Positions 35,572 to 55,160 of a stretch of 64,000 bases of DNA are shown here, one piece after another (within the stretch, counting starts at the first letter, position 1; every line of letters begins with the position of its first letter). The notes under the pieces were generated by a model. That model was given only the letters and a program-made list of their open reading frames with translations, did no database searches and was not told where the DNA came from. This stretch comes from Xanthomonas euroxanthea (GTDB lineage Bacteria; Pseudomonadota; Gammaproteobacteria; Xanthomonadales; Xanthomonadaceae): NCBI RefSeq assembly GCF_900476395.1, contig NZ_UIHB01000005.1:558001-622000 (forward strand), in the 5' to 3' direction. Both the position numbers and the translations under genes were made by a program.

Positions 35572-36680
35572 CACTCCCCCGTTCTTCGCGCAGCGTCGAT
35601 GTCGACGGCGCGCAGCCGTACACCATCACCATCGCGCCCGGCCTGCTGGCCGACGGCGCACGCCTGGCCAGCCATGTGCGCGGCCGCCACGTGCTGCTGC
35701 TCAGCGACTCGCAGGTGGCCCCGCATTACGCCGCCGGGGTGCGCAAGGCCCTGTTGCAGGCGCGCCCGGACCTGCAGCTGGGCGAGCTGGTGATCGCCGC
35801 CGGCGAAGCCTCCAAGACACTGGACAATTTCGGTGCCGCGATTGCGGCGTTGGCCGAACTGGGCGCCACCCGCGACGCCTGCGTGTTCGCGCTCGGCGGC
35901 GGCGTGGTCGGCGACCTGGCCGGGTTCGCGGCGGCCTGCTGGATGCGTGGGGTGGACTGCGTGCAACTGCCCACCAGCCTGCTGGCAATGGTGGATTCCT
36001 CGGTCGGCGGCAAGACCGCGGTGGACATCCCGCAGGGCAAGAACCTGGTTGGCGCGTTCCATCCGCCGCGCGCGGTGATCGCCGATACCGACACCTTGCA
36101 CACCCTGCCCGCGCGCGAGCTGCGCGCCGGGCTGGCCGAGGTGATCAAGTACGGCGCCATCCGCGACCCGCTGTTCTTCCAGTGGCTGCATGCCGAACGC
36201 CGGGCGTTGCTGGAGGGCGATGCCGACGCCCTCGCACAGGCGATCGCACGCAGTTGCGAGCACAAGGCCGACATCGTGGCGCGCGATCCGCTGGAAAAGG
36301 GCGAGCGTGCGCTGCTCAACCTGGGCCACACCTTCGGCCATGCGATCGAGACCGAACAAGGTTACGGCGCGCCCGGCAACGACAACCTCAACCATGGCGA
36401 AGCGGTCGCGGTGGGCATGGTGCTGGCCGCGCGGCTGTCGGCTGCGCTGGGCATGAGCGATGCACAGGACACCGAGGCGCTGCGCGCCCTGCTGCGCGAC
36501 TTCGACCTGCCAACCGACATTCCGCCCGGCCTGTCGCCACAGGCCCTGCTGGGGCGCATGCGGCTGGACAAGAAGAACACCGCCGGCCGCCTGCGGCTGG
36601 TGTTGTGGCGCGGCATCGGCAAGGCCGAGGTGGTGCCCGACGTCGACGAGGCAGCAGTGCTGGAGATCCTCGCGGGCTGA
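35568..36680 (+). CDS. aroB: 3-Dehydroquinate synthase
   Basis: 370 residues. The NAD-binding motif [27 protein letters not shown], the zinc-site region [10 protein letters not shown] and GHTFGHAIE are all present. It converts DAHP to 3-dehydroquinate, the step that feeds the pathway aroK serves. The ATG at 35568 overlaps aroK (ATGA). The stop codon falls inside the first unit of the tandem repeat that follows. Confidence 0.96.
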
Positions 36681-36752
36681 GGCCGGCCGGCACGCACGGA
36701 ACGTTGAATGGCCGCGCCCCGCTGCCGTCGACCGCCCGACCTTCAGCTCTTC

Positions 36753-36820
36753 GTAGGAGCGCCCCCGGGCGCGATGGGGCCTTCCCGATAAATCCCCATC
36801 GCGCCCAGGTGCGCTCCTAC
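36753..36820. repeat. REP-like hairpin, copy 1
   Basis: GTAGGAGCG (36753-36761) pairs with CGCTCCTAC (36812-36820), and an inner GCGCGATGGGG / CCCCATCGCGC stem extends it. GTAGGAGC-type palindromes are a repeated extragenic element in Xanthomonas and Pseudomonas. Confidence 0.75.
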
Positions 36821-36981
36821 GCAGTGCCTGCCTGCCGATCGCCTGCGCAGATAAGGCGGGACGTCGCCCACGCAGGAGCCTGGTGGCACGCGCGGCCCTT
36901 GCCGGCGGGTGAGGCCGGCCAGACACGGAATGCTGGACAGCCGCACCCAGCTGCCGTCGGTCGCACGACCCTTAGCTCTTC

Positions 36982-37049
36982 GTAGGAGCGCCCCTGGGCG
37001 CGATGGGGACTTCCCGATAAATCCCCATCGCGCCCAGGTGCGCTCCTAC
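36982..37049. repeat. REP-like hairpin, copy 2
   Basis: It has the same 68-base structure as copy 1, with two substitutions inside the first arm and centre (CCTGGG for CCCGGG and GGAC for GGCC), so the stem is preserved. Confidence 0.75.
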
Positions 37050-37206
37050 GCAATACCTGCCCGCCGATCGCCTGCGTGGACGAGGCGGAACGCCCATCCG
37101 CCACCGCACCGATTGCCACCGCTGCCCGCTGGACCTTCGCACCTGGAGCAACCCGGCGCGCCCACTGCCTCCCAGCCTTCAGCACCGCCCGGCTACAATC
37201 GGCGCC

Positions 37207-37472: not shown

Positions 37473-38537
37473 ATGCTCAAGAACGATCGCCTGCTGCGCG
37501 CCCTCAACCGCCAGCCCGTGGACCGCACCCCTGTTTGGCTGATGCGCCAGGCCGGCCGCTACCTGCCGGAATACCGCGCCACCCGCGCGCGCGCCGGCAG
37601 TTTCCTGGGCATGGCCAAGAACCCCGAGATCGCCTGCGAAGTGACGCTGCAACCGCTGCAACGCTTCCCGCTGGACGCGGCGATCCTGTTCTCCGACATC
37701 CTGACCATTCCCGATGCGATGGGCCTGGAGCTGTACTTCGTCGAAGGCGAAGGCCCCAAGTTCCGCCACCCGGTGCGCGATGCGGCCGCGATCCATCGGC
37801 TGGGCGTACCGGACATGGAAACCGAGCTGCGTTACGTGATGGATGCGGTGCGCCTGATCCGCCGTGAGCTCGATGGCGCGGTGCCGCTGATCGGCTTCTC
37901 CGGCAGCCCGTGGACGCTGGCCTGCTACATGATCGAAGGCGGCGGCAGCAAGGAATACGCGCGCATCAAGGCCATGGCCTTCAATGCGCCGGACGTGCTG
38001 CATCACCTGCTCGGTACCGTCACCGATGCGGTGATCGCCTACCTGTCGGCGCAACGCGCGGCCGGCGCGCAGGCACTGCAGGTATTCGACACCTGGGGCG
38101 GCGTGCTGTCGCCGGCGATGTACCGCGAGTTTTCGCTGCCCTATCTCACCCGCATCGCGCGCGAGCTGGAACGCGGCGACGGTGCCGAGCGCACCCCGCT
38201 GGTGTTGTTCGGCAAGGGCAACGGTGCCTACGTCAGCGAGCTGGCGGCCAGCGGCGCCGAAGCGGTAGGCGTGGACTGGACCATCGCGCTGGCCGACGCC
38301 GCCCAGCGCGCCGGCGGCCGCGTCGCGCTGCAGGGCAACCTGGACCCGGCCACCCTGTACGGCTCGCCCGAGGCGATCCGCGCCGAAGTCGGCAAGACCC
38401 TGGACAGCTACGCCCAGGGCAATGGCGGCTCGCGCGAAGGCCATGTCTTCAACCTCGGCCACGGCATGTCGCCGGATATGAATCCGGAGCACGTGGGCGT
38501 GCTGGTGGACGCGGTGCAGACGCTGAGCAAGCGGTAA
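37473..38537 (+). CDS. hemE: Uroporphyrinogen decarboxylase
   Basis: 354 residues from ATG 37473, the usual HemE length. The signatures [16 protein letters not shown] and [16 protein letters not shown] are present, with the active-site Asp in [14 protein letters not shown] and the C-terminal FNLGHG. It decarboxylates uroporphyrinogen III to coproporphyrinogen III in haem synthesis. The frame is open upstream through the repeat, but that part is not coding. Two strong hairpins follow. Confidence 0.97.
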
Positions 38538-38548
38538 TCCAAGGCACG

Positions 38549-38617
38549 GGTCGACAGCGCACCGGTGTGCTGTCGACCGCCGCTCAGCGCGCGCACCCGA
38601 GCAGCGCGCGCTGAGCG
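38549..38617. terminator. Twin perfect hairpins after hemE
   Basis: First hairpin: GGTCGACAGC (38549-38558) with GCTGTCGACC (38569-38578). Second: 14-base arms 38581-38594 and 38604-38617 around a nine-base loop. Both are perfect. No U-tract follows, so they may stop transcription with Rho or protect the mRNA 3' end. Confidence 0.6.
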
Positions 38618-39332
38618 TGATGACGGGCGGTGGCTGCATCGGCAATAGATCGGCAGCACCGCCGATACTTATGGGATGCTGCCAGGCCGCCCCAGGCATG
38701 CGGCACAGTGACGAAGGCAGTCTTCAGCGATAGCAAGGCCAGCCTCCATGCCGTCACCCGCATCAAGCCTGCATCCACTCCAAACACGGCCCTCCCGCCT
38801 CGTTCCGTTGAACGTGATCTCGCCACTCCACTGATGTGCGGCAGTGAGCGCCCTGCCGACGTCACTGCGACGTGATGCGCGCCGAGCTCAACCGCAACGC
38901 GGTCAATCATCCACGCGCGTGGGCTCCGGTTTCGCAAGGCACCGACAGCGTACCGGCTGCCCATTAACTTGCCGCAGAGAGTCGCCAAGCGGACGCGAGC
39001 TTTGCTGCCTTTGCGTCAGGAGCAGCCTGTGCTCGCCTGTTCTGCATGGTCCTTCTGTAACTGCCTTTGCGATTCACCACGACATTCCCCGCACGCCGTT
39101 CCAAAACGCGTCTTTACATCGCATACGCTCTAAAGCGGATCGGGTTTCACGTCGATAAGCCCGGCATTGCCGTCGTTTAAACCAATTTTCCCGGACCAAG
39201 GAGATTTACTGTTTCTCCACGGTGATGCGGTGCCACTGCAACACATCTCCGGACAGGCAGGCCGCCTGCCGAACCTCGACATCGTCACATTCGTTCAAGC
39301 GCTCCACTCATTCGAGAAACAGGGAGAAAAGC
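38618..39332. other. Gene-free region upstream of the reb cluster
   Basis: About 715 bases with no supportable gene. The last 200 bases are AT-richer than the surroundings and probably hold the promoter and a long leader for the first reb gene. I find no convincing sigma-54 (GG-N10-GC) element. The ribosome site of the first gene is AGGGAGAA. Confidence 0.45.
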
Positions 39333-39626
39333 ATGGCATTTCCAACCGCCGTCAACGACCAGATCACCGACTCCGTCACCCAAGCCAACACCAAGGTACT
39401 GGGCGACGCCCCGGCTATCGCCATGGGCAATCTGTACCAGGCCACCGCGCAGGCGCTGGCCAATGCCGCCCACAACGCGACCAACGCACAGCAGCAGAGT
39501 TATGTCACTGCGCAGTCGGCCACCACCATGGGCGTGGCCACGCTCTACTCCATCGACACCGCCACCACCGGCGTAGCCACCAAGCAGATTCTAAGCACCG
39601 GCGTGCCCGGACTCGTGTCGCGCTAA
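39333..39626 (+). CDS. RebB-family R-body protein, copy 1
   Basis: 97 residues from ATG 39333, behind AGGGAG. The sequence begins MAFPTAVNDQITDSVTQ and carries the family core VLGDAPAIAMGNLYQATAQALANAAHNAT...QQQ. This is the RebB ('killing trait') family, subunits of R-bodies: large protein ribbons coiled in the cytoplasm that can extend like a spring, first known from Caedibacter. The copy has an eight-residue C-terminal extension not found in copies 2-4. First of four tandem paralogues. Confidence 0.85.
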   Translation: MAFPTAVNDQITDSVTQANTKVLGDAPAIAMGNLYQATAQALANAAHNATNAQQQSYVTAQSATTMGVATLYSIDTATTGVATKQILSTGVPGLVSR

Positions 39627-39648
39627 CTCACATCTTTAGGAGAAGAAA

Positions 39649-39918
39649 ATGGCATTTCCGACCGCCGTCAATAACCAGATCACCGATTCCGTTACCCAGG
39701 TCAATACCAAGGTGCTGGGCGACGCTCCCGCCATCGCCATGGGCAACCTGTATCAGGCCACCGCGCAGGCGCTGGCCAATGCCGCCCACAACGCGACCAA
39801 CGCGCAGCAGCAGAGCTACGTCACTGCGCAATCGGCCACCACCATGGGCGTGGCCACCCTGTACTCGATCGACACCGCCAGTACCGGCGTGGTCACCAAG
39901 CAGATCCTGGGCGTCTGA
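39649..39918 (+). CDS. RebB-family R-body protein, copy 2
   Basis: 89 residues, preceded by AGGAGAAG. It differs from copy 1 at only a handful of positions through residue 80 (for example N for D at residue 9), and the DNA is also nearly identical, so the duplication is recent or maintained by conversion. It would co-polymerise with the other RebB subunits. It follows copy 1 by 22 bases. Confidence 0.85.
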   Translation: MAFPTAVNNQITDSVTQVNTKVLGDAPAIAMGNLYQATAQALANAAHNATNAQQQSYVTAQSATTMGVATLYSIDTASTGVVTKQILGV

Positions 39919-39948
39919 CGGCCCGGCTAACGCCAAGGACATTCGCCA

Positions 39949-40215
39949 ATGGCATTTCCCACCGCCGTCAACGACCAGATCACCGACTCGGTCACCCAGG
40001 CCAACCTGCAGGTGCTGGGAAGCTCCCCTGCCGCAGCCATGGGCAATCTGTACCAGGCCACCGCGCAGGCGCTGGCGAACGCGGCACACAACGCAACACT
40101 CGCGCAACAACAGATGTATGTCACCGCACAGGCAGCAACCACCATGGGCGTTTCGCTGCTGTATTCGCTCGATACCGGCGCCACGGGTGCCGCCACCAAG
40201 AAGATGTTCGGCTAA
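39949..40215 (+). CDS. RebB-family R-body protein, copy 3
   Basis: 88 residues, ATG at 39949. The start MAFPTAVNDQITDSVTQAN is shared with copy 1, but the core reads QVLGSSPAAAMGNLYQ and the second half has diverged (MYVTAQAATTMGVSLLYSLDTGATGAATKKMFG). It is the most diverged of the four tandem copies. A distinct structural role in the ribbon is possible. Confidence 0.85.
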   Translation: MAFPTAVNDQITDSVTQANLQVLGSSPAAAMGNLYQATAQALANAAHNATLAQQQMYVTAQAATTMGVSLLYSLDTGATGAATKKMFG

Positions 40216-40267
40216 CCGCTAACGCCGCAGCGTCTTCGTTCTTTTCCTACCTCAAGGAGCTATCACC

Positions 40268-40546
40268 ATGGCCTTTCCGACCGCCGTCAACAGCCAGATC
40301 ACCGATTCCGTTTCCCAGGTCAACACCAAGGTCCTCGGCGATGCGCCGGCGATTGCAATGGGCAACCTGTTCGTTGCCACCAGCCAGGCGCTGTCCAACG
40401 CCGCCCACAACGCCACCAACAATCAGCAGCAGTCCTACGTGACGATGCAGGCGTCGACGACTCAGGGCGTGTCCACGCTGTATTCGATCGATACCGCGTC
40501 CGATGGTGTCGCCACCCGGGAAATCCTCAGCGCCGGGTTGACTTAA
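40268..40546 (+). CDS. RebB-family R-body protein, copy 4
   Basis: 92 residues behind an AAGGAG ribosome site. It opens MAFPTAVNSQITDSVSQVN and keeps VLGDAPAIAMGNL, then FVATSQALSNAAHNATNNQQQ. Silent differences from copies 1-2 are more common here, indicating an older duplication. Confidence 0.85.
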   Translation: MAFPTAVNSQITDSVSQVNTKVLGDAPAIAMGNLFVATSQALSNAAHNATNNQQQSYVTMQASTTQGVSTLYSIDTASDGVATREILSAGLT

Positions 40547-40652
40547 TCGGCCACCAGGCGTCGCTGCTGCCGCACGAGCGGCGCCTGGTTCGATACGCGA
40601 AGCCTTTGCAACCACCACGCAGTTCGCTGGCCGAATCGAGAAAGGACGCCTC

Positions 40653-40988
40653 ATGCTGCAACTACGTCATATCCCTACGTCCAACACCCTGGATGTCGTC
40701 GTCAGACTGATCCGGGGCCGCACCATCGTGGCGACATTCGCGCCGCATCAAAAGGCAGTGATCAACGTCGAGTTCGACGGCATCCTGCCTGTGATTCCCG
40801 GAGCGCAGCCGTTGGTCTATCGCCAGAAGCTGGGCAACATGATCGACGTGCCGCAGGGCAATTTTGCATTCCTGGAACGCGTGCCCGATGGCGTGGCCTT
40901 GCAGTACGCGTGCAGACACGAACCACAGAACACCGTGCTGTTCTCGGCGTCGGCTGGCGTTGAACAGCGCAGGCCGTCGTTGGCCTAG
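40653..40988 (+). CDS. Hypothetical protein in the reb cluster
   Basis: 111 residues, not recognised. No signal peptide or membrane segment; the sequence is rich in beta-type residues (LDVVVRLIRGRTIVATFAPHQKAVINVEFDG), suggesting a small beta domain. It lies between RebB copy 4 and the divergent RebB-like genes on the same strand. It may be an assembly factor or a dual-start polypeptide; no function can be assigned. Confidence 0.7.
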   Translation: MLQLRHIPTSNTLDVVVRLIRGRTIVATFAPHQKAVINVEFDGILPVIPGAQPLVYRQKLGNMIDVPQGNFAFLERVPDGVALQYACRHEPQNTVLFSASAGVEQRRPSLA

Positions 40989-41011
40989 GACACTGATGCC
41001 AGTGCCCCGTC

Positions 41012-41257
41012 ATGGAGCCAAGCGCGCAGGTCGCAAGCGTCGCCAGCCTGATCGGTACCGCCGCTACAGGTGCAGCGATGGCGATCGGCCAGGCGCCGGC
41101 CTTCGCGATGGGGGCGACCTATCTGGCGCTGTCGGATTCCATCGCGCTCGCAATGGAAAACGCGGTCGCCAACCAGCAGCGCGGACAGGTGCTCGCCGAT
41201 GCAGCTCTCACTCAAATCCTTGCCTTAATCATCCAGAAGGGAGCGACTTCGTCATGA
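41012..41257 (+). CDS. Divergent RebB-like protein (fifth)
   Basis: 81 residues. It keeps the RebB skeleton: a hydrophobic helix, IGQAPAFAMGATYLALSDSIALAMENAVANQQRGQ, matching G-x-x-P-A-x-AMG...NA-x-x-x-QQ. The N-terminal FPTAVN of copies 1-4 is lost. Its stop overlaps the next start by four bases. Confidence 0.72.
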   Translation: MEPSAQVASVASLIGTAATGAAMAIGQAPAFAMGATYLALSDSIALAMENAVANQQRGQVLADAALTQILALIIQKGATSS

Positions 41258-41916
41258 TCGACGACAGTAGCGTGAACAGCCAGATCGTCGATGCGGTGAG
41301 CAGCATCGTGACGCTGACCACCGGTCAGGCACCGGCACAGGCGCTCGGCATGCTCGATGCCGTGATGCTGGAGACGCTGGGCATGGCAATGCACAACGCC
41401 GTCAATCGGCAGCAAGGCGCCGGCATGATCAATGCAGCAGCGATCACCGCCGCCTGCGCCAAGATGATCTCGGCACCGTTCCCGGTTCCGCCGCCACCAC
41501 CGCCTGCACCACCCGGACCACCACCGACGGTCGCGCCATTGCCAGGTCCTCCCCCCGTACCGCCCCCGCCTGCAGCGCTCATCGCCGCCGCCGCGGCCGA
41601 AGCCAAGGTGGCCGTCGACGTGCTGAAGACGCAAGCACAAGGCGCCTCGGCAGATGCCGCGACCGCAACCGCCGACCTCATGGAAGTGCATGCGCTGAGC
41701 GTCCCGCCGCCCCTGCCCGCCACTCCCCCCGCTTCCGGTGCCGGCCTCGATCATGCTGCCACTTCTGATGCTCCTGCTGCTGCAGCCGCAACTTCACCCG
41801 CAGCTGCAGCTACAGGCACACCCCCTGTCGCTGCTGCATCTGCACCTGCTGCTCCTGTTGCACCTGCATCTGCATCTAGCTCTGCACCTGCACCTGCGCC
41901 GCCTGCTCAGTCATAG
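41254..41916 (+). CDS. RebB-like protein with proline-rich and Ala/Pro/Ser-rich tail
   Basis: 220 residues. Residues 1-72 follow the RebB pattern (NSQIVDAVSSIVTLTTGQAPAQALGMLD...HNAVNRQQG). Residues 75-107 are a polyproline stretch, followed by an Ala-rich helix (about 108-140) and a low-complexity A/P/S/T tail (about 145-220) encoded by imperfect hexanucleotide repeats. The start overlaps the previous gene (ATGA). The tail could be a flexible linker or a cargo-binding arm on the ribbon. The fusion is unlike classical RebB. Confidence 0.75.
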   Translation: MIDDSSVNSQIVDAVSSIVTLTTGQAPAQALGMLDAVMLETLGMAMHNAVNRQQGAGMINAAAITAACAKMISAPFPVPPPPPPAPPGPPPTVAPLPGPPPVPPPPAALIAAAAAEAKVAVDVLKTQAQGASADAATATADLMEVHALSVPPPLPATPPASGAGLDHAATSDAPAAAAATSPAAAATGTPPVAAASAPAAPVAPASASSSAPAPAPPAQS

Positions 41917-41983
41917 GCCGTCCGCAGAGATGAGGTCAGCTCCCCCTACCACCAGGCCTCATTGAAAGGCGGCCGATCATTCC

Positions 41984-42343
41984 ATGGGAACCACGATGGA
42001 ACCGACAAAGGTCAATGCGCAGGTCATCGATGTCATCAACCAGGTGCAGCTGGCGACCATGAGCCCGCAGGTCGTGCTGACCAGCGGAGCCGGCAAAGCC
42101 TATCAATCGGTGGCGCAGTCCACCGCCATTGCGGTGCAGGACGCCACCGACGCGCTACGCAATGTCTCCACGATCGCCACCACGGCCGTTGGCGTGGCGA
42201 TGGCGCAGTACCTGGCCACCGGCGATGACAAGTACGTCACTGCACTCAACCAGGCGCAGGCACTGATGCAGGGCGCCACCGACGACTTTGCCAGGATCGG
42301 TTCGGCGGCCGGGCTGGTGCTGAAGAATTTCCCCGCTGGTTGA
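41984..42343 (+). CDS. Divergent RebB-like protein (seventh)
   Basis: 119 residues; an in-frame ATG at 41996 (MEPTKVNAQVID) is an alternative start. VNAQVIDVINQVQLATMSPQVVLTSGAGKAYQSVAQSTAIAVQDATDAL aligns with the RebB core by spacing but has lost the NAT-QQQ end. It has a longer C-terminus. Family membership is likely but less certain than for the others. Confidence 0.62.
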   Translation: MGTTMEPTKVNAQVIDVINQVQLATMSPQVVLTSGAGKAYQSVAQSTAIAVQDATDALRNVSTIATTAVGVAMAQYLATGDDKYVTALNQAQALMQGATDDFARIGSAAGLVLKNFPAG

Positions 42344-42362
42344 ATCCACAAGGAGTCATGCA

Positions 42363-43433
42363 ATGTCCGTTTCGATCGCAGGCCGCCTCATCTCGATGCC
42401 GACGATGCTCTCGACGCTGGGCAGGCAGTGCCTGGCCTTCATCGATGGAGGCACCCAGTGGCTGGCATGGGCGATCCAGTCGCCCGGTGTGCGCTACGAC
42501 TTTCCCGACGAGAGCAGCTTGCTCGACGAAGTGCAGCAAGGCCTGCATGGCTCGCGCCTGGCCTTGTTGCCGCAGCTGGAGCTGAGGGTCAGCCCGGTCA
42601 AGCTGATGACCTTGAGCCCGACCGACCTGGGCACGCTGGCGCAGGCCGAAGCCGGAGACACTGGCTCGGTGGTCAAGGCGCAGCTGCAGCGGATCTTTCG
42701 CGACAACGCCCTGTACACCGCAAGCGACCTGGCCGCAGGCCGCAGCCTGCTGACCCAGCTGAAGATCGATGGCGCCGGCGTGTTCCAGTCGCTGGACCTG
42801 GAAGAAAGCCTGGCACTCCGCCAGCTGGCCGCCGACGCGCCGCCGGCCAACGTGACGCCGGCACTGCAGCAGGAAGCGGCGGCATTCGCCATCGAGCAGG
42901 CGCGCACGCCCCTGGAATTCTGCGATTACTACCGCTTCTACCTGGCCTGCACCGCCACCATCGCCGCTGAGGACGAACGTGCGCATGCGGCGGCCTCGGC
43001 ACTGCAGACGCTGTTGCCACAGCTGTTCACCACCCTGGATTGCCCGCAGGTCCAGGGCCTGCCCTCGCCCAACGAGGTCGAACGCAGCGTTGCCGAATGG
43101 CTGGCACGCGGTCGCCAGATCGGCTTCGCGCGGCTATCGCTGGCGGCCCAGCAGATCGTCCAGCACACCCGTTACCGAGGCGACGGCGGCGACCAGGCGG
43201 CCAGCGATGCGATCCGCCTCTATTTGCAGTCTGCGCAGGCATTTCTGGCGGCCAACCGGCCCAGCCGTGGCGTGCTGGGCCAGGATGGCAGCAGCTGCGT
43301 GTTCACCATGCAGAACGACGCCCTGGCTGCACTGCTGCAGGTCAACGGCGGCATCATCTCGCTCCGCGACTTCGGTGCCGCACCTGCATCATCCACCACC
43401 TCGCAAGACACGGATGCGGAGGCCACGCAGTGA
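42363..43433 (+). CDS. Hypothetical 356-residue protein in the reb cluster
   Basis: Not recognised. Predicted mainly helical, without signal peptide or membrane helix. It starts 20 bases after the preceding RebB-like gene, behind AAGGAG, and its stop overlaps the next gene (GTGA), so it belongs to the operon. Its end (SSTTSQDTDAEATQ) is low complexity. A scaffold or assembly role for R-bodies is a guess. Confidence 0.7.
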   Translation: MSVSIAGRLISMPTMLSTLGRQCLAFIDGGTQWLAWAIQSPGVRYDFPDESSLLDEVQQGLHGSRLALLPQLELRVSPVKLMTLSPTDLGTLAQAEAGDTGSVVKAQLQRIFRDNALYTASDLAAGRSLLTQLKIDGAGVFQSLDLEESLALRQLAADAPPANVTPALQQEAAAFAIEQARTPLEFCDYYRFYLACTATIAAEDERAHAAASALQTLLPQLFTTLDCPQVQGLPSPNEVERSVAEWLARGRQIGFARLSLAAQQIVQHTRYRGDGGDQAASDAIRLYLQSAQAFLAANRPSRGVLGQDGSSCVFTMQNDALAALLQVNGGIISLRDFGAAPASSTTSQDTDAEATQ

Positions 43434-44065
43434 GCGCACCGCCCCCGCCTGCTGCGGCCGGCGACCAGGCCCCGCCTGCGGCCAGCGCCGCCGACGCGGC
43501 GCGCGAAGCGGTGCATGCAGGTCGCGCCGCTGCCCTGGCGGCCGCACGCCAGGGCATGGCGCAGGCCGAACACGCACTGGGCGAGAGGCTGCGCGCGCTT
43601 GCAGCGCAGCGTCCAACCGAAACCGCACCACTCGCCGCTCCGATGCGGCCATCGCGTGCCGATGCCGTCACCCCGCTCCATTCCGCGTCCACTTCAGGAG
43701 ATACCAGCATGTCCGACGATACCCAGCCCACGCCCCCGAACCAGACACCAGCCTCCACTGCGCAATCGTCAGGATCCTCGCAGATCGAAGCGGCGCTGAA
43801 AGCGGCGCAAGCCCAGATCGATCAGGCGATGGCGGCCAGCAATATGGCAGTGCAGGCGGCGATGCAGGCCGCAACCGCGGCGACTGCCGCAGCTGGCAAT
43901 GACCAGGCGATCGATAGCGCAAACCAGGCACTGCAGCAGGCCGAACAGGCCGCCGCTGCGGCGGTGGCCGCCGCGCAGCAGCAGACCGAGCAGGCAATGA
44001 GCGCCGGCATACCCGACTCGCCGCCGCCGGAAGGATCGCCCCCATCGACGCCGGACCGGAGCTGA
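43430..44065 (+). CDS. Ala/Gln-rich coiled-coil protein in the reb cluster (two possible starts)
   Basis: 211 residues from a GTG at 43430 that overlaps the previous stop. An internal ATG at 43710 (MSDDTQPTPPNQ) has its own good AGGAGA ribosome site and would give a 118-residue product. Both halves contain long Ala/Gln/Glu helices (QAEHALGERLRALAAQ; IDQAMAASNMAVQAAMQAAT), suggesting coiled coil. The C-terminus is proline-rich. No family recognised. Use of both starts would give two proteins that share the second helix. Confidence 0.65.
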   Translation: MSAPPPPAAAGDQAPPAASAADAAREAVHAGRAAALAAARQGMAQAEHALGERLRALAAQRPTETAPLAAPMRPSRADAVTPLHSASTSGDTSMSDDTQPTPPNQTPASTAQSSGSSQIEAALKAAQAQIDQAMAASNMAVQAAMQAATAATAAAGNDQAIDSANQALQQAEQAAAAAVAAAQQQTEQAMSAGIPDSPPPEGSPPSTPDRS

Positions 44066-44069
44066 TGGC

Positions 44070-45116
44070 ATGCCACAGGTCTATGCGGCGGTGTCGGATG
44101 GGGGCGGCAATTATCTGATTGCACGCAAACGCCTACTCAATCAGTGGTGGGCGGAATACGCGGCGCCGGTACTGGCGATGGAAGCGCTTGCGCTGGTATG
44201 TCAGACCAATGCGGATCCAGCGCAGGATTGGAACACCGCCCGGGTTCGGCTAGGTAACGCATACCAGGCGGCAAACGGGGTCTTGTGCGACGGGATACCC
44301 GTCTTTCCCGACGCAGCAAGCGCACTCGATCGTGCAAGAAACGCATGCATCGCCACTCCCGACGGGAAAGTGATCGCCAACAACGCGCTGTTCGCAGTCC
44401 AGAATCTCATCGATGTGACGATTGCACGCCGCCCGGCCATTCCGTTTTCTCCGTGCATCAAGGCCGATACCGCCACGCTCGCATCCAGCATCGCCGCTGC
44501 CGGCGGCAATCCCCTGCAATGGAACACCCCGCGCGCGCAGGCCGAGGCGATCGCGGCCGCGCTCGATGACTGGGCAGCCGCCCAACCACCAAGCATCGTC
44601 AATCAGGCAGCCCAATGGGCATTACCCGGTGGCGGCATCCACGACGGCGAATCTCCCGAGACTGCGGCGCGGCGCGAGTTTGCCGAGGAGACCGGTTTTT
44701 CGCTCGACAACTCGAGCGACTTCCCGAGCGATCCGCCCGTGCAACTGACCGACCCGAAACGCAAATCGTTCTGGCTGGCGTGTTTCTCGACCAGGCTTTC
44801 TCTGGATGACATTGTGACATCCATCAATCGGGCCACTGTTCCGCGCGCAAGCGGCAATCGACCGACCAGCAGCGCAGTCTGCGATTGGGAAATCGAAGGC
44901 GTGCAACGCGTCGAGAAATCGCAACTGCGCGCCTATCTGGGTACCTACCAAGTCCTGTCGCGGGCCGCTGTAAGCAACGCGGCTTACGCCCAGGCACGCA
45001 TTGACCATCCGGGTTCGCCCACCCCAACCAGTTATGACAGAAGGTGGCAGGCAAGCAGACGCCATGCCATCGATTGGTACGCGCTGATCGCCATGCATCT
45101 GCAAGTCACTGTTTGA
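44070..45116 (+). CDS. NUDIX-domain protein of the reb cluster
   Basis: 348 residues. A full Nudix box (G-x5-E-x7-REU-x-EE-x-G-U) is present at about residues 188-211: GGIHDGESPETAARREFAEETGF. Residues 1-170 precede it and are unrecognised. NUDIX enzymes hydrolyse nucleoside diphosphates linked to another moiety. The gene starts four bases after the coiled-coil gene, so it is part of the operon. A catalytic NUDIX domain is not a usual R-body component; it might be cargo or a regulator of nucleotide signals. Confidence 0.8.
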   Translation: MPQVYAAVSDGGGNYLIARKRLLNQWWAEYAAPVLAMEALALVCQTNADPAQDWNTARVRLGNAYQAANGVLCDGIPVFPDAASALDRARNACIATPDGKVIANNALFAVQNLIDVTIARRPAIPFSPCIKADTATLASSIAAAGGNPLQWNTPRAQAEAIAAALDDWAAAQPPSIVNQAAQWALPGGGIHDGESPETAARREFAEETGFSLDNSSDFPSDPPVQLTDPKRKSFWLACFSTRLSLDDIVTSINRATVPRASGNRPTSSAVCDWEIEGVQRVEKSQLRAYLGTYQVLSRAAVSNAAYAQARIDHPGSPTPTSYDRRWQASRRHAIDWYALIAMHLQVTV

Positions 45117-45157
45117 TTACCCGTTCCACCAGCCCTCGCCATACGCGGAGCTTCACC

Positions 45158-45844
45158 ATGACCTTCCACATCGGCTTTGACACCGACCGCTTTCCGGGAC
45201 TGCCCGCGCTCGCCTGGTTGAAGACACAGACCGGGCTGGCCTGGTGCGGCTATTACCTGGCGCCTGCGCCCAGCCATGCGGATACCGGATGGATGGGATG
45301 GCGACCGACGTTGGTCGCCAATGGCTGGGGGCTGGCGCCGATCTATCTTGGCCAACAGAGCGCCGGTCCGGACTCGCATACCGTGACCGCAGACCAGGGC
45401 AGCGTAGACGGCGCAAACGCGGCTTTCCTGGCCGATCAAGAGGGCTTTCCCGTTGGTGCGACGGTCTATCTTGACTGGGAAGACGGCGGGGAACCCAGTG
45501 ACGCTGGAGTCGCCTACATCCGCGCCTGGATCGCGGCACTGGTCGCTGCCGGCTATGCACCGGGCCTATATTGCTCGCACGCACTGGCCGCCAGCCTGGT
45601 TGCCGCACTCGCGCCGGGGCCGACGCTGCAGGTCTGGGCCTGGCGCGTCGCCAACGCCAACACCCACACCTACGCCGGCGACATCCAGACGGTGACCGCA
45701 TCCGATCCGGCCGGCTGCGGTTATGCGCACGCCGCGCTCTGGCAGTGCGAACAGAACGCGGTGCTGTCGCTGCCGGGAACGCCCTGCGATGGTCTGCAGA
45801 TCGACCTCACTTACTCCGACGCCGCAGATCCAAGCGCTCCCTGA
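45158..45844 (+). CDS. DUF1906 glycoside-hydrolase-like (GH25-type fold) protein
   Basis: 228 residues from ATG 45158, behind GCGGAG; the frame is open upstream but without protein character. The TIM-barrel pattern of DUF1906 is visible: IGFDTDRFPG at the N-terminus, WCGYYLAPAP, GLAPIYLGQQ, VYLDWEDGG with the acidic pair, GYAPGLYCSH and LQVWAWRVAN. Such domains are related to lysozyme-like GH25 enzymes that cleave peptidoglycan. There is no signal peptide, so export would need another route. It may be the lytic cargo of the R-body system. Confidence 0.8.
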   Translation: MTFHIGFDTDRFPGLPALAWLKTQTGLAWCGYYLAPAPSHADTGWMGWRPTLVANGWGLAPIYLGQQSAGPDSHTVTADQGSVDGANAAFLADQEGFPVGATVYLDWEDGGEPSDAGVAYIRAWIAALVAAGYAPGLYCSHALAASLVAALAPGPTLQVWAWRVANANTHTYAGDIQTVTASDPAGCGYAHAALWQCEQNAVLSLPGTPCDGLQIDLTYSDAADPSAP

Positions 45845-45883
45845 GCAAACGCCCCCTTCCCCTTTGCGAGCCGAGACCACGCC

Positions 45884-47668
45884 ATGAAGGAATCTCCCGA
45901 ACAAGAACAACTGCGCCGTGCGATCAGCGGCGAGTTGACCAAACGGATCAACGACGCGGCGCGCTATCCCAACGTGCGCTCTGCGGTGATCCAGGCATTG
46001 GGCACCATCCAGGATCGGATCGCGGGTCTATGCATCGCGGTGCGCGAGCGATTCATGTTGCGCGACGACCAGCCGCTGGCACGCTTCTACATCAAGGGCG
46101 GCAATGCATTCACAGCATGCATGGACCTATTGCAAGGGCAGGACCAGCACCTGTTCGATTCGGGAAGCTCGGATTGGGACACGCAGGTCGCGATCGACCC
46201 CTGGCTTCCCACATCCGTGCAGGATGCGCTGCATGCGGAAATTGAGGACATCGTCGTCGATGAGATGAAGAAGGCCGGCGTCCTCATCGCCTTCGAGCTC
46301 AGTCTGCTGACGGCCCCCGAATCTCCGCTGTCGGAGCAGCTTTACCCCATTCCACGTGCGCAATGGGGTCCGAACACAGTCGACGTGAGGTGTCTGGTCA
46401 CCTGTGACGCGCCGCAGACATTACGCCGGGTCTTCGAGCGTGACCGCACCGGCCTGTCCGCCTATACCGGTGTGGAGATCGCCAAGATCGGGGAGCGCGA
46501 TACCCCATCCCCGCCAGGCATCGTGCTGAACGACGGGATCAAGCCATTCGTGCTCTATCGCCTGGGTTACACCTGGCACGCCAACCTCATGGAAACCTAT
46601 GTCGACCGGATTGTCACGGAACCGGCAAGTCCACGCGGCATACTGATGGAATTGATCGACGTGAGCCTTCCGCGCCGCGACACGATCGAAGCGATCACGA
46701 TCTGGTCGGAGATGGAAAACGGACACCTGACCATTGCAACTGCTGGTGGCACGCAGGAGCGTTGGCAATTGCCGTTACCGGACCTGGATTATCATCTGCG
46801 CGAGAATCTGCTGATGTTGTGCGAGATCGCAAGCGACCCGCTCGCACTGGGCGCGCATAAGGAAGCCAAGCGACGCGAACGTGTGGCCGCAATCCACGCC
46901 TGGTACGCGTCCAGAGCGCAGCTGCAGCATTTTCAAGACGTCCTCGATGTAATGGCGGGCAGACACGTCGGGCAAGCTGGCGACGACGCCACCGCGCTGG
47001 TGAACGCGTTAATGGCATCAGTACGTGCGCGCACGTTGGGAGCCGCACCGGACTACGTCAACGGGCAACCGACCGATACAACGCGCACGCGCATCCTTGC
47101 CGCACGCTACGGCACCGGCACCCTGCTCACGCTGATGTCGGCGTCCTTCACCTCGCCGGTCGTGCTTTCGGCAGCTTTCAGCGATGATCTGCGGTTGATG
47201 AGCATCCTCGGCCAGAGCCCTTATCTGGCGATCGACCGACTGCGTTTTTCCGGCGTGGACATGGCGGCGGTGGCACGGGTGACCCACAAACAGCTACGTG
47301 GGCTGGACATTGCCGTATTTGAGCAAGCAGTCGGACGCTGGCTCGGCGAGAATGTCCAGGTCCTGGCCCAACCCCACAACACGCCACGGGTGGGAGGTCT
47401 TAGCTACGAGTGCACGCTGGTGGTGTTCGTCAAAAACAAGAAACCGCCGTTCGCAAAAACGGTTGTCGCGTTTCTGACTCTCACGACGGCTACTGCCGCG
47501 CAGGCACCCTTCCATTCCAGCCCGTCCGATCAGGGCAATGCATATGCGGCGCTGCTGGACATCGACGGTCAGCGCAAGGCGGCTGCTGCGCTGATCGGAG
47601 AGTTCGTGCTGCGTGATCTGCTGTCCAAGCAGCACGAAACCATCAAGACACTGCTACCTAACGCCTAG
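45884..47668 (+). CDS. Unrecognised 594-residue protein with nucleotidyltransferase-like motif
   Basis: No family recognised with confidence. At about residues 66-104 the sequence FYIKGGNAF, then SDWDTQVAI, has the form hG[GS]...[D]h[DE]h of minimal nucleotidyltransferases (as in AbiEii-type toxins), which suggests an NTase fold. The rest is mixed, with a helical region about 310-400. Near residues 525-550 the segment FAKTVVAFLTLTTATAAQAPF is hydrophobic. It is the last gene of the forward reb operon, and its stop overlaps the convergent regulator stop in a shared CTAG. Confidence 0.65.
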   Translation: MKESPEQEQLRRAISGELTKRINDAARYPNVRSAVIQALGTIQDRIAGLCIAVRERFMLRDDQPLARFYIKGGNAFTACMDLLQGQDQHLFDSGSSDWDTQVAIDPWLPTSVQDALHAEIEDIVVDEMKKAGVLIAFELSLLTAPESPLSEQLYPIPRAQWGPNTVDVRCLVTCDAPQTLRRVFERDRTGLSAYTGVEIAKIGERDTPSPPGIVLNDGIKPFVLYRLGYTWHANLMETYVDRIVTEPASPRGILMELIDVSLPRRDTIEAITIWSEMENGHLTIATAGGTQERWQLPLPDLDYHLRENLLMLCEIASDPLALGAHKEAKRRERVAAIHAWYASRAQLQHFQDVLDVMAGRHVGQAGDDATALVNALMASVRARTLGAAPDYVNGQPTDTTRTRILAARYGTGTLLTLMSASFTSPVVLSAAFSDDLRLMSILGQSPYLAIDRLRFSGVDMAAVARVTHKQLRGLDIAVFEQAVGRWLGENVQVLAQPHNTPRVGGLSYECTLVVFVKNKKPPFAKTVVAFLTLTTATAAQAPFHSSPSDQGNAYAALLDIDGQRKAAAALIGEFVLRDLLSKQHETIKTLLPNA

Positions 47669-49203
47669 ACCGGTGACGCACCGACTTGGGCACCGGCGTT
47701 ACGGAACACACGCGGGCTCACCCCAACCAGCCGTCGGAAGCTCTTTTCGAAATGGCTCAGGTCGCCGAAACCGACCTTCAGCGCCACTTCGGTGATGCGC
47801 AGCCTGCGCTGCTGATGCAAAAGCTCCTTGGCCTTTTCGATCCGTAGCTGCTGCAGCATCGGTTTGAACGGGGTGCCGAGTTCGTCGCGGAACAGAAAGC
47901 CCAGATGCGACTGGCTGACATGCGCCTGCCGGGCCAGATCGCCCAGGGTCAGCGGCTCGGCATAGTGCTCACCCAGATGCACCAGGGCGCGCCGCAGCGC
48001 GTCGTGCAGGCTGGCAAGACGCTGGCCGGGGCGATGCGGAAGGCCGGCGATCCAGTCGACCGGCGTTTCCGGCTGCGTAGGCTCAGCCGGAAGATCGGCC
48101 GGTTGCGACATCGTCGCGCATGCATCGTGCTGCGCTCCCTGCACCCGGCCTTCCAACAGACGCGGTGCGTGGCGCTGGATGTCGGCGCTGCCGACCGGCC
48201 TGCAGGCGGTCATGACCGCCAGACGCAGCACCACCCGCTCCAGCTCCTGGAGGTTTTCCGGCCATGGGTAGTGGGTCAGGGCGTCCATCAACACGTCGGT
48301 GACCACCTGACCGTGATCCAGGCCATGCCGATCCAGCACGTGCTCGACGTGAAAGCCGATATCTGCCCGCCGCTTGCGCAACGGGGTAAGTTCGATCGAC
48401 AGGACATCCAGTTGCGACAGCAGCGCCCGCGAGAAGCGTCCGGCACGTACGAGGCGCGACAGATCAGCGGTCGTGGAGGCGACCACGCGTGGCGAGTCCT
48501 CGCCGTCCACGGCGGACCATGGCCCGCCGAGGCCACAAAGCTGCCAGGCCAACTGGCGCTGTAGCGCGTCGTCGAGCTCGTCCACGCCCTGCAGGAACAG
48601 CGTTCCCCCGGCCCCGCGCTTGAACCATGCTGCCGGTGCGTCGCCGGGAGCGGCGCAGTCGATCGCAACGAACGGCCCCTCCCGCCAGGGTGCAGCTGCA
48701 TGCAGCAAAACGGCCACCTTTTCCTTCTCGGTTCCGAACTCGCCGCGCACGATGACCGGCAAGCGACTGTATGCGGCGTGCTCGACAAATTCGTCGATCG
48801 TCAAGACCTCTTCGCTCACGCCCACGATCGACAGCGCGCGACCAAACCGGTCTTGCGCGAACGCCCGCGCGGCATCGCGCTTGATCAGGTACGCACAATA
48901 CTTTGCGATCTGCTGGCACAGCGTCATCGCCTCCGGGGTCATTCGTTCTTGAGCCGGCGTGACATTCAGTGTGCCGAGCACTTGCCGGCCGTGCTGGACG
49001 GGAAAACACTGCGTGGGCGGGGGCTGGATTTCTGCCAGAACCGGCCCCGGTGGACCGTGATGCTCCACCGCGACAAACTTACATACCGCGCCGTTCGTGA
49101 TCGCGCTCTGCGACAGTTGTGCAGCGATCTTTCCCAGCATTTTCTCCAAGGGATCGCCTGGGAAATAGGCGCACTGCACTACATCAAAGACTTGCTTTTC
49201 CAT
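47665..49203 (-). CDS. Regulator with degenerate NtrC-type AAA+ domain and AraC HTH (reb regulator)
   Basis: 512 residues. N-terminal GAF-like part (about 1-130), AAA+-like domain (about 135-340) and AraC/XylS HTH (about 410-505, LTLGDLARQAHVSQSHLGFLFRDELG and GFGDLSHFEKSFRRLVGVSPRVFR). The Walker A is GEFGTEKEKV, with glutamate where GxxGxGK is expected; Walker B is GGTLFLQGVDEL instead of GGTLFLDEI. The GAFTGA loop that contacts sigma-54 is missing, and the usual Fis-type HTH is replaced. It can therefore hardly activate sigma-54 and should bind as an AraC-type factor. It converges on the reb operon, the likely target. Confidence 0.82.
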   Translation of the reverse strand: MEKQVFDVVQCAYFPGDPLEKMLGKIAAQLSQSAITNGAVCKFVAVEHHGPPGPVLAEIQPPPTQCFPVQHGRQVLGTLNVTPAQERMTPEAMTLCQQIAKYCAYLIKRDAARAFAQDRFGRALSIVGVSEEVLTIDEFVEHAAYSRLPVIVRGEFGTEKEKVAVLLHAAAPWREGPFVAIDCAAPGDAPAAWFKRGAGGTLFLQGVDELDDALQRQLAWQLCGLGGPWSAVDGEDSPRVVASTTADLSRLVRAGRFSRALLSQLDVLSIELTPLRKRRADIGFHVEHVLDRHGLDHGQVVTDVLMDALTHYPWPENLQELERVVLRLAVMTACRPVGSADIQRHAPRLLEGRVQGAQHDACATMSQPADLPAEPTQPETPVDWIAGLPHRPGQRLASLHDALRRALVHLGEHYAEPLTLGDLARQAHVSQSHLGFLFRDELGTPFKPMLQQLRIEKAKELLHQQRRLRITEVALKVGFGDLSHFEKSFRRLVGVSPRVFRNAGAQVGASPV

Positions 49204-49636
49204 GGATGCTTTCGACCTGATCTACTGGCGCGCTCGGAAGGCGGCCAGACCCAAGTCGCGCCATCCCTGACCAGACCGTCGGCAAAGCTCCAAGCGTGCA
49301 TTCCGCTTTTTCTACGAACGCTCCCCTCGCCCGCCCTCGGTCGATCCACCCTGATGTGAGACAACGCTCGCTTGCGGTGACTGGACGGTGGCAGGCGCAA
49401 AACGATTCGCCAGCAAAACAACCGCTTGGTGCAAGCCAGATCTGGCATTAGCACGCCGCCACAGCCCGTTCCCGACGATTCGTAGCATCGGGCTTGTCCG
49501 CAATTGGATTGGGTGCGGCGCGTCTCACTCGTTGCCGCTGCGGCGATGCGACGCTGCGACGGGCTCAAGCAATGGCGTCGTCTATAGTGTTGCGACGTTC
49601 TGCACGCGCGCGCAGGGATAATGCGCTGTCTTCCCG
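49204..49636. other. Gene-free region between the reb regulator and an exporter
   Basis: About 430 bases without a supportable gene; divergent promoters for the regulator and the exporter must lie here. No clear operator palindrome seen. Confidence 0.4.
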
Positions 49637-51070
49637 ATGGCGATGCTCATGTCCCAGCCCGTGCCCACCTTGCGCGCCTACGACACCATCAAGCCGCTGC
49701 TGTGGCTGGTGTCATTGGCGATCTTCATGCAGATGCTGGATGCGACCATCGTCAATACGGCGTTGCCGTCGATGGCGCGCAGCCTGCACGAAAGCCCGCT
49801 GCAGATGCAGTCGGTGGTCTTCAGCTATGCGTTGGCGGTGGCGATGTTCATCCCCGCCTCGGGCTGGATTGCCGACCGCTTCGGCACGCGGCGCACCTTC
49901 CTGGCGGCGATCATCGTGTTCACGCTGGGCTCGCTGCTATGCGCGGCCGCGCAACAGCTGCCGCAACTGGTGGCCGCGCGCGTGGTGCAAGGCATCGGTG
50001 GGGCGATGCTGCTGCCGGTGGGCCGGCTGGCAGTGCTCAAGACCGTGGCGCGCGCCGACTTCCTGCGCGCAATGAGCTTCATCGCGATCCCGGCGCTGAT
50101 CGGACCGCTGATTGGCCCCACCTTGGGTGGCTACCTGGTCGAAGTCGCCTCCTGGCATTGGGTGTTCCTGATCAACCTGCCGATTGGCGTGATCGGTTTC
50201 ATTGCCGCGCTGAAGATCATGCCCGACCACTACGGCGATGCGCGCCAGCGCTTCGATCTGATCGGCTATCTGATGCTGGCGTTCGGCATGGTGGCACTGT
50301 CGTTGGCGTTGGACGGCATCTCCGAACTCGGCCTGCGCCACGCCTTCGTCATGCTGCTGGCAATCGGCGGGCTTGCTGCGCTGGCCGGTTACTGGCTGCA
50401 TGCGGCCAGTACGCCGGCGGCATTGTTTCCGCTGGCCTTGTTCAAGGTGGCCAGCTATCGCATCGGCATCCTGGGCAACCTGTTCGCGCGGGTGGGCAGT
50501 GGCTCGATGCCGTTCCTGATTCCGCTGCTGCTGCAGGTCGGCCTGGGCATGAGCCCGATGAATGCCGGGCTGATGATGGTGCCGGTGGCGCTGGCCGGCA
50601 TGGCCGCCAAGCGGGCCGCCGTGAAGCTGGTCGGCCGCTTCGGCTACCGCCGCGTGTTGATGCTCAATACCGTGCTGGTGGGCCTGGCGATGGCCAGTTT
50701 CGCCTTGGTCGATGTCGGCCAGCCGCTATGGCTGCGGCTGCTGCAGCTGGCCTGCTTTGGCGCGGTGAACTCGTTGCAGTTCACCGTCATGAACACCGTC
50801 ACCCTGCGCGACCTGGATCGCGAGCAGGCCAGCCCCGGCAACAGCTTGTTGTCGATGGTGATGATGCTGGCCACCGGTTTCGGCGCGGCGGCAGCGGGCA
50901 GTCTGCTGGCCGCCTTCAACACGCATCTGGGCGACAGCCACGGCGCCACGGCGGCGCTGCATGCGACCTTTCTGTGCGTCGGTGGCATCACCTTGTCCTC
51001 GACGCTGATCTTCTGGCAACTGGCCGAGACGCGGCCGCATCCCAGGCAGGTGGAGGAAGTTGCCGAATAG
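49637..51070 (+). CDS. DHA2-family multidrug MFS exporter (MdtD-like)
   Basis: 477 residues; start uncertain between ATG 49637, 49643 and 49649 because no good ribosome site marks one. The DHA2 motif LDATIVNTALPSMARSL follows TM1, motif A is GWIADRFGTRRTF and motif C is IPALIGPLIGPTLGGYLVE. Of the DHA2 group it most resembles E. coli MdtD. It should export drugs or other hydrophobic compounds with H+ antiport. It stands alone. Confidence 0.85.
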   Translation: MAMLMSQPVPTLRAYDTIKPLLWLVSLAIFMQMLDATIVNTALPSMARSLHESPLQMQSVVFSYALAVAMFIPASGWIADRFGTRRTFLAAIIVFTLGSLLCAAAQQLPQLVAARVVQGIGGAMLLPVGRLAVLKTVARADFLRAMSFIAIPALIGPLIGPTLGGYLVEVASWHWVFLINLPIGVIGFIAALKIMPDHYGDARQRFDLIGYLMLAFGMVALSLALDGISELGLRHAFVMLLAIGGLAALAGYWLHAASTPAALFPLALFKVASYRIGILGNLFARVGSGSMPFLIPLLLQVGLGMSPMNAGLMMVPVALAGMAAKRAAVKLVGRFGYRRVLMLNTVLVGLAMASFALVDVGQPLWLRLLQLACFGAVNSLQFTVMNTVTLRDLDREQASPGNSLLSMVMMLATGFGAAAAGSLLAAFNTHLGDSHGATAALHATFLCVGGITLSSTLIFWQLAETRPHPRQVEEVAE

Positions 51071-51142: not shown

Positions 51143-54727
<3,585 letters not shown>

Positions 54728-55160
54728 TGGACAGGTTTCACGACAAGTCGCCGCATAGTGCGGGCCACGCGCGGTGCGAGCAAGCCCGAGCGAGCTTGCC
54801 ACGCCGCGCATCCGTTTTCACCCCAAGGCCGAACCGGCACCTGCACGGGGTCGATCTGGTTTACCGCTGCTGCATGCGCGCCAAGCAGCAACGGTGCGAC
54901 GGGGCAAGCGACGAGAGCAGCACGTCCTCCATGCTCGGCCCTCCCCATCGCCGCCTGCGCGGCCGCGCGGACTCCCTGACGGGACCGCACCGTTCCGGCT
55001 CCACGGAAGGTGGCCTCGGAATGACCTCGGAGCGGCCGACGAAACCGCTGCGCCGCCGCCAGGGGGCCGCGGCGGTGCTCGGAACCCGCGTGTGCCACGC
55101 GTATGCTCCGGCGCTGGGCGCGCCGGCCGCATCCAGTTGCCGCGCGCTTGCCACGTTTCG
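54728..55160. other. Region between the two sensor kinase genes
   Basis: About 430 bases with no supportable gene apart from a possible 28-codon N-terminal extension of the first kinase. A promoter for the first kinase should lie here, but none stands out. Confidence 0.35.

Follow-up and report, generated by a model that had tools for sequence, protein, structure and literature searches.

The window analysed here is a stretch of 64,000 nucleotides from Xanthomonas euroxanthea (contig NZ_UIHB01000005.1, positions 558,001 to 622,000). It contains an R-body (reb) locus in which genes for ribbon proteins are followed by genes for enzymes. Between uroD and the gene of an MFS transporter, 13 + strand genes follow one another in a run (39333-47668) that starts with the ATG at 39333. 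A convergent regulator gene on the - strand begins at 49203. A preliminary description of this region, 39333..49203, gave its coordinates and gene order correctly. The features are as follows, a slot gene being one located between orf10 and the regulator.

39170..39225, + strand: promoter- or operator-like element CCGTCGTTTNNNCCAAT-N20-TACTGT-N4-CCACGGTGA, 56 bp, conserved, ending 107 bp before reb1
39333..39626, + strand: reb1, typical Reb protein of 97 amino acids (aa); PF11747, 1.1e-30
39649..39918, + strand: reb2, 89 aa; PF11747, 5.8e-31
39949..40215, + strand: reb3, 88 aa; PF11747, 2.7e-29
40268..40546, + strand: reb4, 92 aa; PF11747, 1.8e-31
40653..40988, + strand: orf5, 111 aa, without a match in Pfam, NCBIfam or PADLOC and so of no family; among the loci compared, present in those of Xanthomonas only
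41012..41257, + strand: reb6, short divergent Reb protein of 81 aa, taken as HP1.4 by size and place; PF11747, 2.5e-13
41254..41916, + strand: reb7, Reb domain with a proline-rich tail, 220 aa, taken as HP1.3 by place; PF11747, 1.2e-20
41984..42343, + strand: orf8, 119 aa, taken as HP1.2; no RebB match
42363..43433, + strand: orf9, 356 aa, taken as HP1.1; no Pfam or NCBIfam match
43430..44065, + strand: orf10, 211 aa, Ala/Gln-rich, probably helical (by eye), GTG start uncertain; last core gene before the slot
44070..45116, + strand: NUDIX protein, slot gene, 348 aa; PF00293, 2.5e-11; a stretch of ~150 aa precedes the intact Nudix box
45158..45844, + strand: DUF1906/Rv2525c glycoside-hydrolase-like protein, slot gene, 228 aa; PF08924, 2.4e-15; Protein Data Bank (PDB) entry 1sfs, 0.0023
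45884..47668, + strand: p594, slot gene, 594 aa; family without a library match, KGGNA...SDWDTQ motif
47665..49203, - strand: convergent regulator, 512 aa; PF14532, 2.4e-19 (AAA) and PF12833, 5.1e-23 (AraC helix-turn-helix, HTH)

To judge by their spacing, the 13 genes plausibly form one operon. The short gaps and 4-base overlaps noted at the outset are real: the gaps measure 4-106 bp, genes of the run overlap at 41254-41257 and 43430-43433, and the p594 and regulator genes overlap convergently at 47665-47668. No sigma-70-like promoter was found in 38400-49800, where shuffled sequence gives 1.8, and the same interval contains five terminator-like sites, compared to 6.8 in shuffles. The RebB domain (PF11747) is recognised in six genes of the run, with 50-108 bits against a cut-off of 24. 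All six sit in this locus, and a genome search gave no RebB match elsewhere. The preliminary description had counted seven RebB-like genes, but the seventh (orf8) is not found by the Pfam model and corresponds to HP1.2.

The reb half of the locus is already known. According to the available text of Raymann et al. 2013 (PMC3583457), the Group 1 reb synteny comprises several reb genes in a like arrangement together with HP1.1 (~360 aa), HP1.2 (~110-120 aa) and the Reb-like proteins HP1.3 (~170 aa) and HP1.4 (~60-80 aa), and an Azospirillum brasilense plasmid is named as a carrier of all four HP1 proteins. The window proteins of 81, 220, 119 and 356 aa match HP1.4, HP1.3, HP1.2 and HP1.1 in this order, these assignments being based on size, order and relatives and not on comparison with the published sequences. 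Reb7 is somewhat longer than the published size of HP1.3. By this arrangement the window locus is a Group 1 R-body locus. Two of the proteins that had been called unrecognised, those of 119 and 356 aa, thus have published counterparts. The available text of the same paper differs in making no mention of a slot, enzyme genes, an AraC/AAA regulator or a promoter element for Group 1. The reb groups 1, S1, S2 and S3 of Doerr et al. 2026 (PMC13430693) agree with the present locus in that group 1 genes co-occur with S1-S3 and that the proline-rich tail of S2 resembles the tail of reb7. They differ in that non-Reb neighbours such as HP1.1 are set aside, and 'nudix' and 'DUF1906' are absent from the main text as far as it was available.

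The core is conserved well beyond Xanthomonas. Orf8 keeps 77-98% identity across the loci of Xanthomonas, Stenotrophomonas, Eleftheria and Azospirillum, and 50% in genome G824, a member of another family of the class. The identity of orf9 is 41-96% in six aligned relatives, 60% in Eleftheria, ~50% in Azospirillum and 25% in G824. In Stenotrophomonas HP1.1 is followed by a gene of the orf10 type, as it is, judged by position, in the loci of Eleftheria and Azospirillum. Orf5 has no match in the Stenotrophomonas, Eleftheria, Azospirillum or G824 loci. A class-wide search for HP1.1 found it in two of 369 genomes, the window's own and G824.

The convergent regulator, correctly recognised in the preliminary description, consists of a degenerate AAA domain of the bacterial enhancer-binding protein type fused to an AraC HTH in place of a Fis-type HTH. 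Its Walker A motif reads GEFGTEK in five of the aligned proteins, GGFGTEK in one and GEFGSGK in G824. The GAFTGA loop and the Fis-type HTH are the marks of sigma-54 activators. The GAFTGA region is absent from all seven aligned regulators and the HTH is of the AraC type, so the protein should not act with sigma-54, and this candidate role was dropped. The regulator presumably binds the 56-bp element upstream of reb1.

The NUDIX assignment of the first slot protein stands. In the six aligned proteins G188, E194, R202-E203, E206-E207 and G209 are invariant, which leaves the box intact when compared with the Nudix consensus GX5EX7REUXEEXGU. The second protein had been called DUF1906 and lysozyme-like. 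With 57.6 bits against a cut-off of 27.2 for PF08924 it is by profile a member of the Rv2525c glycoside-hydrolase-like family, but its wall-cleaving or lysozyme activity is putative. Searches of Pfam, NCBIfam and PADLOC with p594 gave nothing at E values up to 1, and its profile gave only one chance-level match to PDB sequences (E 1.7). The pattern KGGNA...SDWDTQ...ELID, in which a possible nucleotidyltransferase motif had been seen, is invariant and resembles the site of such enzymes. K71, G72, G73, D97, W98, D99, E256 and D259 are the same in ten p594 proteins, down to 43% identity, and would form the active site. A nucleotidyltransferase role is possible for p594, with the NUDIX protein as its possible partner. 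The AbiEii/MenT nucleotidyltransferase toxins have the same KGG...DxD motif order, but p594 is much longer. In a PADLOC search of seven window proteins orf10 matched LmuB (0.0066), the NUDIX protein PDC-S07 (3.5e-6) and the regulator, via its AAA domain, RtcR models (1.3e-28); orf5, orf9, the DUF1906 protein and p594 had no match.

The region between the helical orf10 and the regulator was compared in 37 Group 1 loci. In unannotated genomes genes were taken from a simple codon-usage finder, which reproduced nearly all window genes and missed reb7. Vibrio and Photobacterium plasmid matches to HP1.2, which come without HP1.1 matches, were left out of the 37. All 12 Xanthomonas loci neighbour uroD and/or the same MFS gene and hence occupy one chromosomal site, and all 12 contain a DUF1906 gene, a family that was looked at within the loci only. 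The slot holds NUDIX, DUF1906 and p594 genes in seven, DUF1906 and p594 in one (G1011), and DUF1906 with other open reading frames (ORFs) in three (G285, G1007 and G1009). In the last (G140) the contig ends after DUF1906, short of a regulator. The contigs of G1008 and G1016 begin near HP1.2, so that no reb genes were seen in these two.

G285 and G1007 are mosaics at the DNA level. Compared to the window, the genes from reb1 to HP1.1 are 89-97% identical, the regulator 85-86% and the MFS gene 92-93%, whereas DUF1906 is 71-73% identical and NUDIX and p594 cannot be aligned. The slot has therefore been exchanged within an otherwise stable locus. A 410-aa slot protein of G285 has no Pfam or NCBIfam match. 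It resembles PDB 4m0m (2.2e-7) around a GxSRG...DxVPGP segment typical of hydrolases, and is 37% identical over 81 aa to a 502-aa protein of G824 encoded just past the regulator. Two further resemblances were rejected. The 220-aa protein of G285 has only a weak local match (E 0.002-0.007) to the Azospirillum proteins of 266-295 aa described below, for which homology is not claimed, and a 365-aa ORF of G1007 that looked nitrilase-like by eye gave nothing credible in Pfam, NCBIfam or PDB.

Outside Xanthomonas the slot is also variable. A plasmid of Eleftheria terrae (Burkholderiales) has the order reb1-4, HP1.4, HP1.3, HP1.2, HP1.1, orf10, NUDIX, DUF1906, p594 and regulator, that is, the order of the window minus orf5; identities to the window proteins are 56% for p594, 65% for DUF1906, 36% for NUDIX and 47% for the regulator. 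Among the 16 Stenotrophomonas slots, one (S. nematodicola) contains p594, one (G957) an HNH-like and a DUF4135/LanM-like protein, and 14 are empty. Four of the seven Azospirillum plasmid loci encode a slot protein of 1155-1174 aa with an antiparallel gene for 266-295 aa. Another has a 1707-aa slot protein (stretch L093, 10866-15989), whose N-terminal part of ~1158 aa is common with the type found in L086 (14032-17553), at 64-66% identity, and whose ~550 extra C-terminal residues have no family match. The G824 slot contains an HNH-like protein, a 96-aa ORF and a PLD-like protein (PLDc_2, 1.5e-17, above cut-off). G957 and G824 have homologous HNH-like proteins (30% identity over 478 aa), whose best matches to TIGR02646/PtuB, 1.6e-7 and 2.2e-6, respectively, do not reach the curated cut-offs. 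The other slot protein of G957 matches DUF4135 (1.7e-27, above cut-off) and LanM (4.6e-27, below cut-off). In G824 the alpha/beta-hydrolase-like gene related to that of the G285 slot (L094, 17081-18589) lies directly past the regulator, where there may be a second exchange point.

On this sequence comparison the enzyme half of the locus is a variable slot of exchangeable genes, not one fixed set. The earlier statement that enzymes are built into the reb locus holds in that they belong with the reb genes, but some loci carry other genes or nothing in their place. The supposed novelty of the system also needs division: the reb half is published Group 1 synteny, while for a variable enzyme slot no description was found in the literature searched (mostly open-access text, titles and abstracts), and a search pairing R-body with nudix found no paper.

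The 14 Stenotrophomonas genomes with an empty slot all hold a p594 gene (9) or a NUDIX gene (5) elsewhere. Six of the nine detached p594 genes are located directly behind a NUDIX gene, with the p594 start 19-27 kb from the HP1.1 start; the other three (G124, G958 and G959) are on another contig, without NUDIX. The five NUDIX genes stand just before reb1.

The detached p594 units share the promoter element of reb1. Upstream of reb1 the element is complete in the window (29 of 29 positions); S. nematodicola has 24 matching positions, Eleftheria 21, and the remaining Xanthomonas and Stenotrophomonas loci, where the contig covers this stretch, 25-29. At a threshold of 19 the 64-kb window has one site, and shuffled windows reach 16-20. 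With a matrix derived from 26 reb1 sites, each of the nine detached p594 or NUDIX-p594 units proved to have the element upstream, at -85 to -207 from the start and with scores of 16.0-30.2, against a maximum of 9.4 in 6000 random 350-bp pieces of Stenotrophomonas loci. The nine units are a few related groups and not nine independent events. This result comes from a test that was widened once the outcome of a first version was known, in which fixed spacing and 200 bp gave five of the nine units (p 0.0003) against a background that held at least one true reb1 site; the later version used 350 bp, flexible spacing and a background redrawn without reb1 sites. The scores of four HP1.1 genes that stand without reb lie in the background range, being reached by 149 to 3814 of the 6000 pieces, and the element was not found in the decayed loci of G159 and G231.

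These data bear on the simplest explanation, that the enzyme genes are chance neighbours downstream of reb in one Xanthomonas lineage. The ends of bacterial operons accumulate genes, and all Xanthomonas loci lie at one chromosomal site, as would be expected. The like gene order on the Eleftheria plasmid, the p594 gene in the S. nematodicola slot and the detached copies with the reb1 element come close to refuting this explanation, and it was dropped as highly improbable.

P594 and the NUDIX type also co-occur with the reb locus across genomes. The sample consisted of 126 genomes, namely 35 of Xanthomonas (12 with the locus) and 91 of Stenotrophomonas (16 with the locus). P594 is present in 18 of the 28 genomes with the locus and in none of the 98 without (Fisher 4.7e-15, phylogeny ignored), or, by genus, in 8/12 against 0/23 for Xanthomonas and 10/16 against 0/75 for Stenotrophomonas. 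The NUDIX type, searched at E up to 1e-15 and, for Stenotrophomonas, among at most 23 first-look candidates per genome, likewise occurs in 18 of 28 against 0 of 98 (7/12 and 0/23; 11/16 and 0/75). The neighbourhood comparison suggested in the preliminary description is thus positive, with the gene order kept in another bacterial order and p594 and the NUDIX type, in the 126 genomes of the two genera, restricted to those with the locus. In a separate family-wide draw p594 was present in five of 297 genomes, all with the full locus, and 68 of the 297 hold some RebB gene. A contig scan for p594 with two peptide patterns gave ten loci. Six in Xanthomonas (as far as the contigs reach) and that of S. 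nematodicola are inside the reb locus, and those of three S. maltophilia strains are away from reb.

In G159 (L080, 9000-13000) and G231 (L081, 8800-12900) only reb4- and HP1.1-like genes are kept at the same site, L080 also showing traces of orf10 and the regulator. The reb locus is probably being lost in these two Xanthomonas genomes. Two of the Stenotrophomonas genomes counted as lacking the locus (G1000 and G954) have HP1.1 without reb within the fetched 19 kb.

The co-occurrence speaks against a second explanation, in which anti-phage defence or toxin-antitoxin genes collect in the slot as a hot spot at the operon end and borrow the operon's promoter without any link to R-bodies. The rapid turnover of the slot, the similarity of the HNH proteins to the retron effector models TIGR02646/PtuB, albeit below cut-offs, and the PDC-S07 match of the NUDIX protein speak for it. 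Against it, p594 and the NUDIX type were found in none of the 98 genomes of the two genera that lack the locus, and p594 has the reb1 element when detached. Furthermore, no relatives of p594 were found in phage records and viral contigs and none of HP1.1 in viral contigs, and PADLOC has no match for p594 or the DUF1906 protein. We regard a defence hot spot as quite unlikely.

The main rival places the action of the enzymes inside the producing cell. They would serve as a fate switch, shut down metabolism, loosen the wall (DUF1906) or tune nucleotides (NUDIX, p594) for R-body formation and bursting, and would be part of a release mechanism and not a poison. The common promoter element and the co-occurrence fit this role equally well, a wall-acting enzyme beside a piston is logical, and Caedibacter cells that produce R-bodies stop dividing, according to the available text of PMC3583457. 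However, a role in the producer predicts one conserved set of enzymes; instead, HNH, PLD, LanM-like and hydrolase-like proteins replace each other and some slots are empty. Action inside the producer is therefore considered unlikely, although less so than the explanations above.

The reading we favour, and consider fairly probable, takes the locus as a Group 1 R-body operon whose enzymes are exchangeable, regulated together with the ribbon and probably cargo, freed into a target by ribbon extension. The slot enzymes are good candidates for the poison released by R-bodies because their genes differ from one relative to the next and those of the ribbon do not. In the available text of PMC3583457, Caedibacter R-bodies are needed for the killing of Paramecium, but ribbons made in Escherichia coli do not kill, and a toxin is assumed; its nature is left open there, with 'species-specific toxins' named as a possibility.

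The following mechanism is proposed. The conserved core, made up of four Reb ribbon proteins, two divergent Reb proteins, HP1.2, HP1.1 and the helical protein, is probably driven by a promoter upstream of reb1 that the convergent AraC/AAA regulator activates. The slot enzymes would be made together with the ribbon from one transcript, perhaps in a subset of cells as in Pseudomonas aeruginosa PA14, for which the available text of PMC8322103 reports such reb expression. The Reb proteins would assemble into an R-body, the enzymes would be loaded with it, and the cells would become one-shot release devices, set off when eaten or at another trigger. After uptake, the extending ribbon would rupture the membranes of the bacterium and of the target or its vacuole, and the enzymes would escape. 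Caedibacter and the PA14 model (PMC8322103) supply the analogy. As far as that paper's available text goes, the PA14 cluster has in common with the present locus the Reb ribbons, dedicated regulators and a proposed release of other bacterial products on extension, but its reb type is RebP/RebD, its regulators are RcgA and FecI2, and no variable enzyme slot is described.

Several observations weigh against enzymes as R-body cargo. Two of the seven Azospirillum loci (Sp 7 and MTCC4038) have a slot of ~500 bp without a listed gene, although their core proteins have the same accessions and the strains may be near-identical. Within the 200 bp ahead of the five NUDIX genes that precede reb1 there is no separate copy of the element. 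The element was also not found ahead of reb1 in any of the seven Azospirillum loci or in G824, and the shared-promoter argument is therefore limited to Xanthomonas, Stenotrophomonas and Eleftheria. The co-occurrence counts take no account of phylogeny. No export signal or shared docking domain was seen by eye in the slot proteins. The profile comparison of p594 with AbiEii was not significant; only the KGG segment aligns, at a probability of 1.3-1.4% and E 0.036-0.039, and the nucleotidyltransferase proposal is based on the motif. HP1.1-like genes without reb in the fetched stretch occur in another genus (L082, 10819-11856, apparently fused to an orf10-like tail) and at three Stenotrophomonas places (L137, L138 and L139). 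Finally, none of the slot ORFs was recognised as an immunity gene, small uncharacterised ORFs being present in G824, G1009 and Azospirillum.

This last point makes a toxin aimed at bacteria less likely. Toxins aimed at eukaryotes fit, because unrelated proteins are exchanged at one place, immunity genes are not recognised and the promoter element is common; the target would most likely be a protist or another eukaryote. Polymorphic toxin systems likewise combine conserved machinery with exchanged enzymes, and the ~1158-aa Azospirillum part has differing C termini. The Group 1 loci differ from these systems in the lack of recognised immunity genes and of a secretion signal or delivery domain visible by eye.

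More tentatively, at a little less than an even chance, the Group 1 loci of Alpha-, Beta- and Gammaproteobacteria could constitute a broad class of toxin cartridges, in which a core of Reb, HP1.1, HP1.2 and orf10 is combined with a swappable slot. In Xanthomonas, Stenotrophomonas and Eleftheria a single promoter element would govern the operon, and in Stenotrophomonas the detached effectors as well. On this view the toxins so far missing from the R-body picture would be encoded by the slot genes, and p594, together with its NUDIX partner, would be the first such family to be named. Exchangeable enzymes in a reb operon provide concrete candidates for the assumed R-body toxin, and the reb1 promoter element offers a handle for a genome-wide search for further R-body effectors. 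The findings suggest a modular weapon against grazers common to bacteria of soil, plants and water.

Some other features of the window were noted. A 196-bp unit is present twice between the end of aroB and uroD (36668-36863 and 36897-37092, 229 bp from start to start, 83% identical). The Xanthomonadaceae small RNA Xoo2 is present. A large hybrid histidine kinase gene (Reg_prop/Y_Y_Y/HATPase/receiver) occupies 51143-54811, and in several relatives (L061, L064, L065, L066 and L081) a second, related kinase gene lies beside it.

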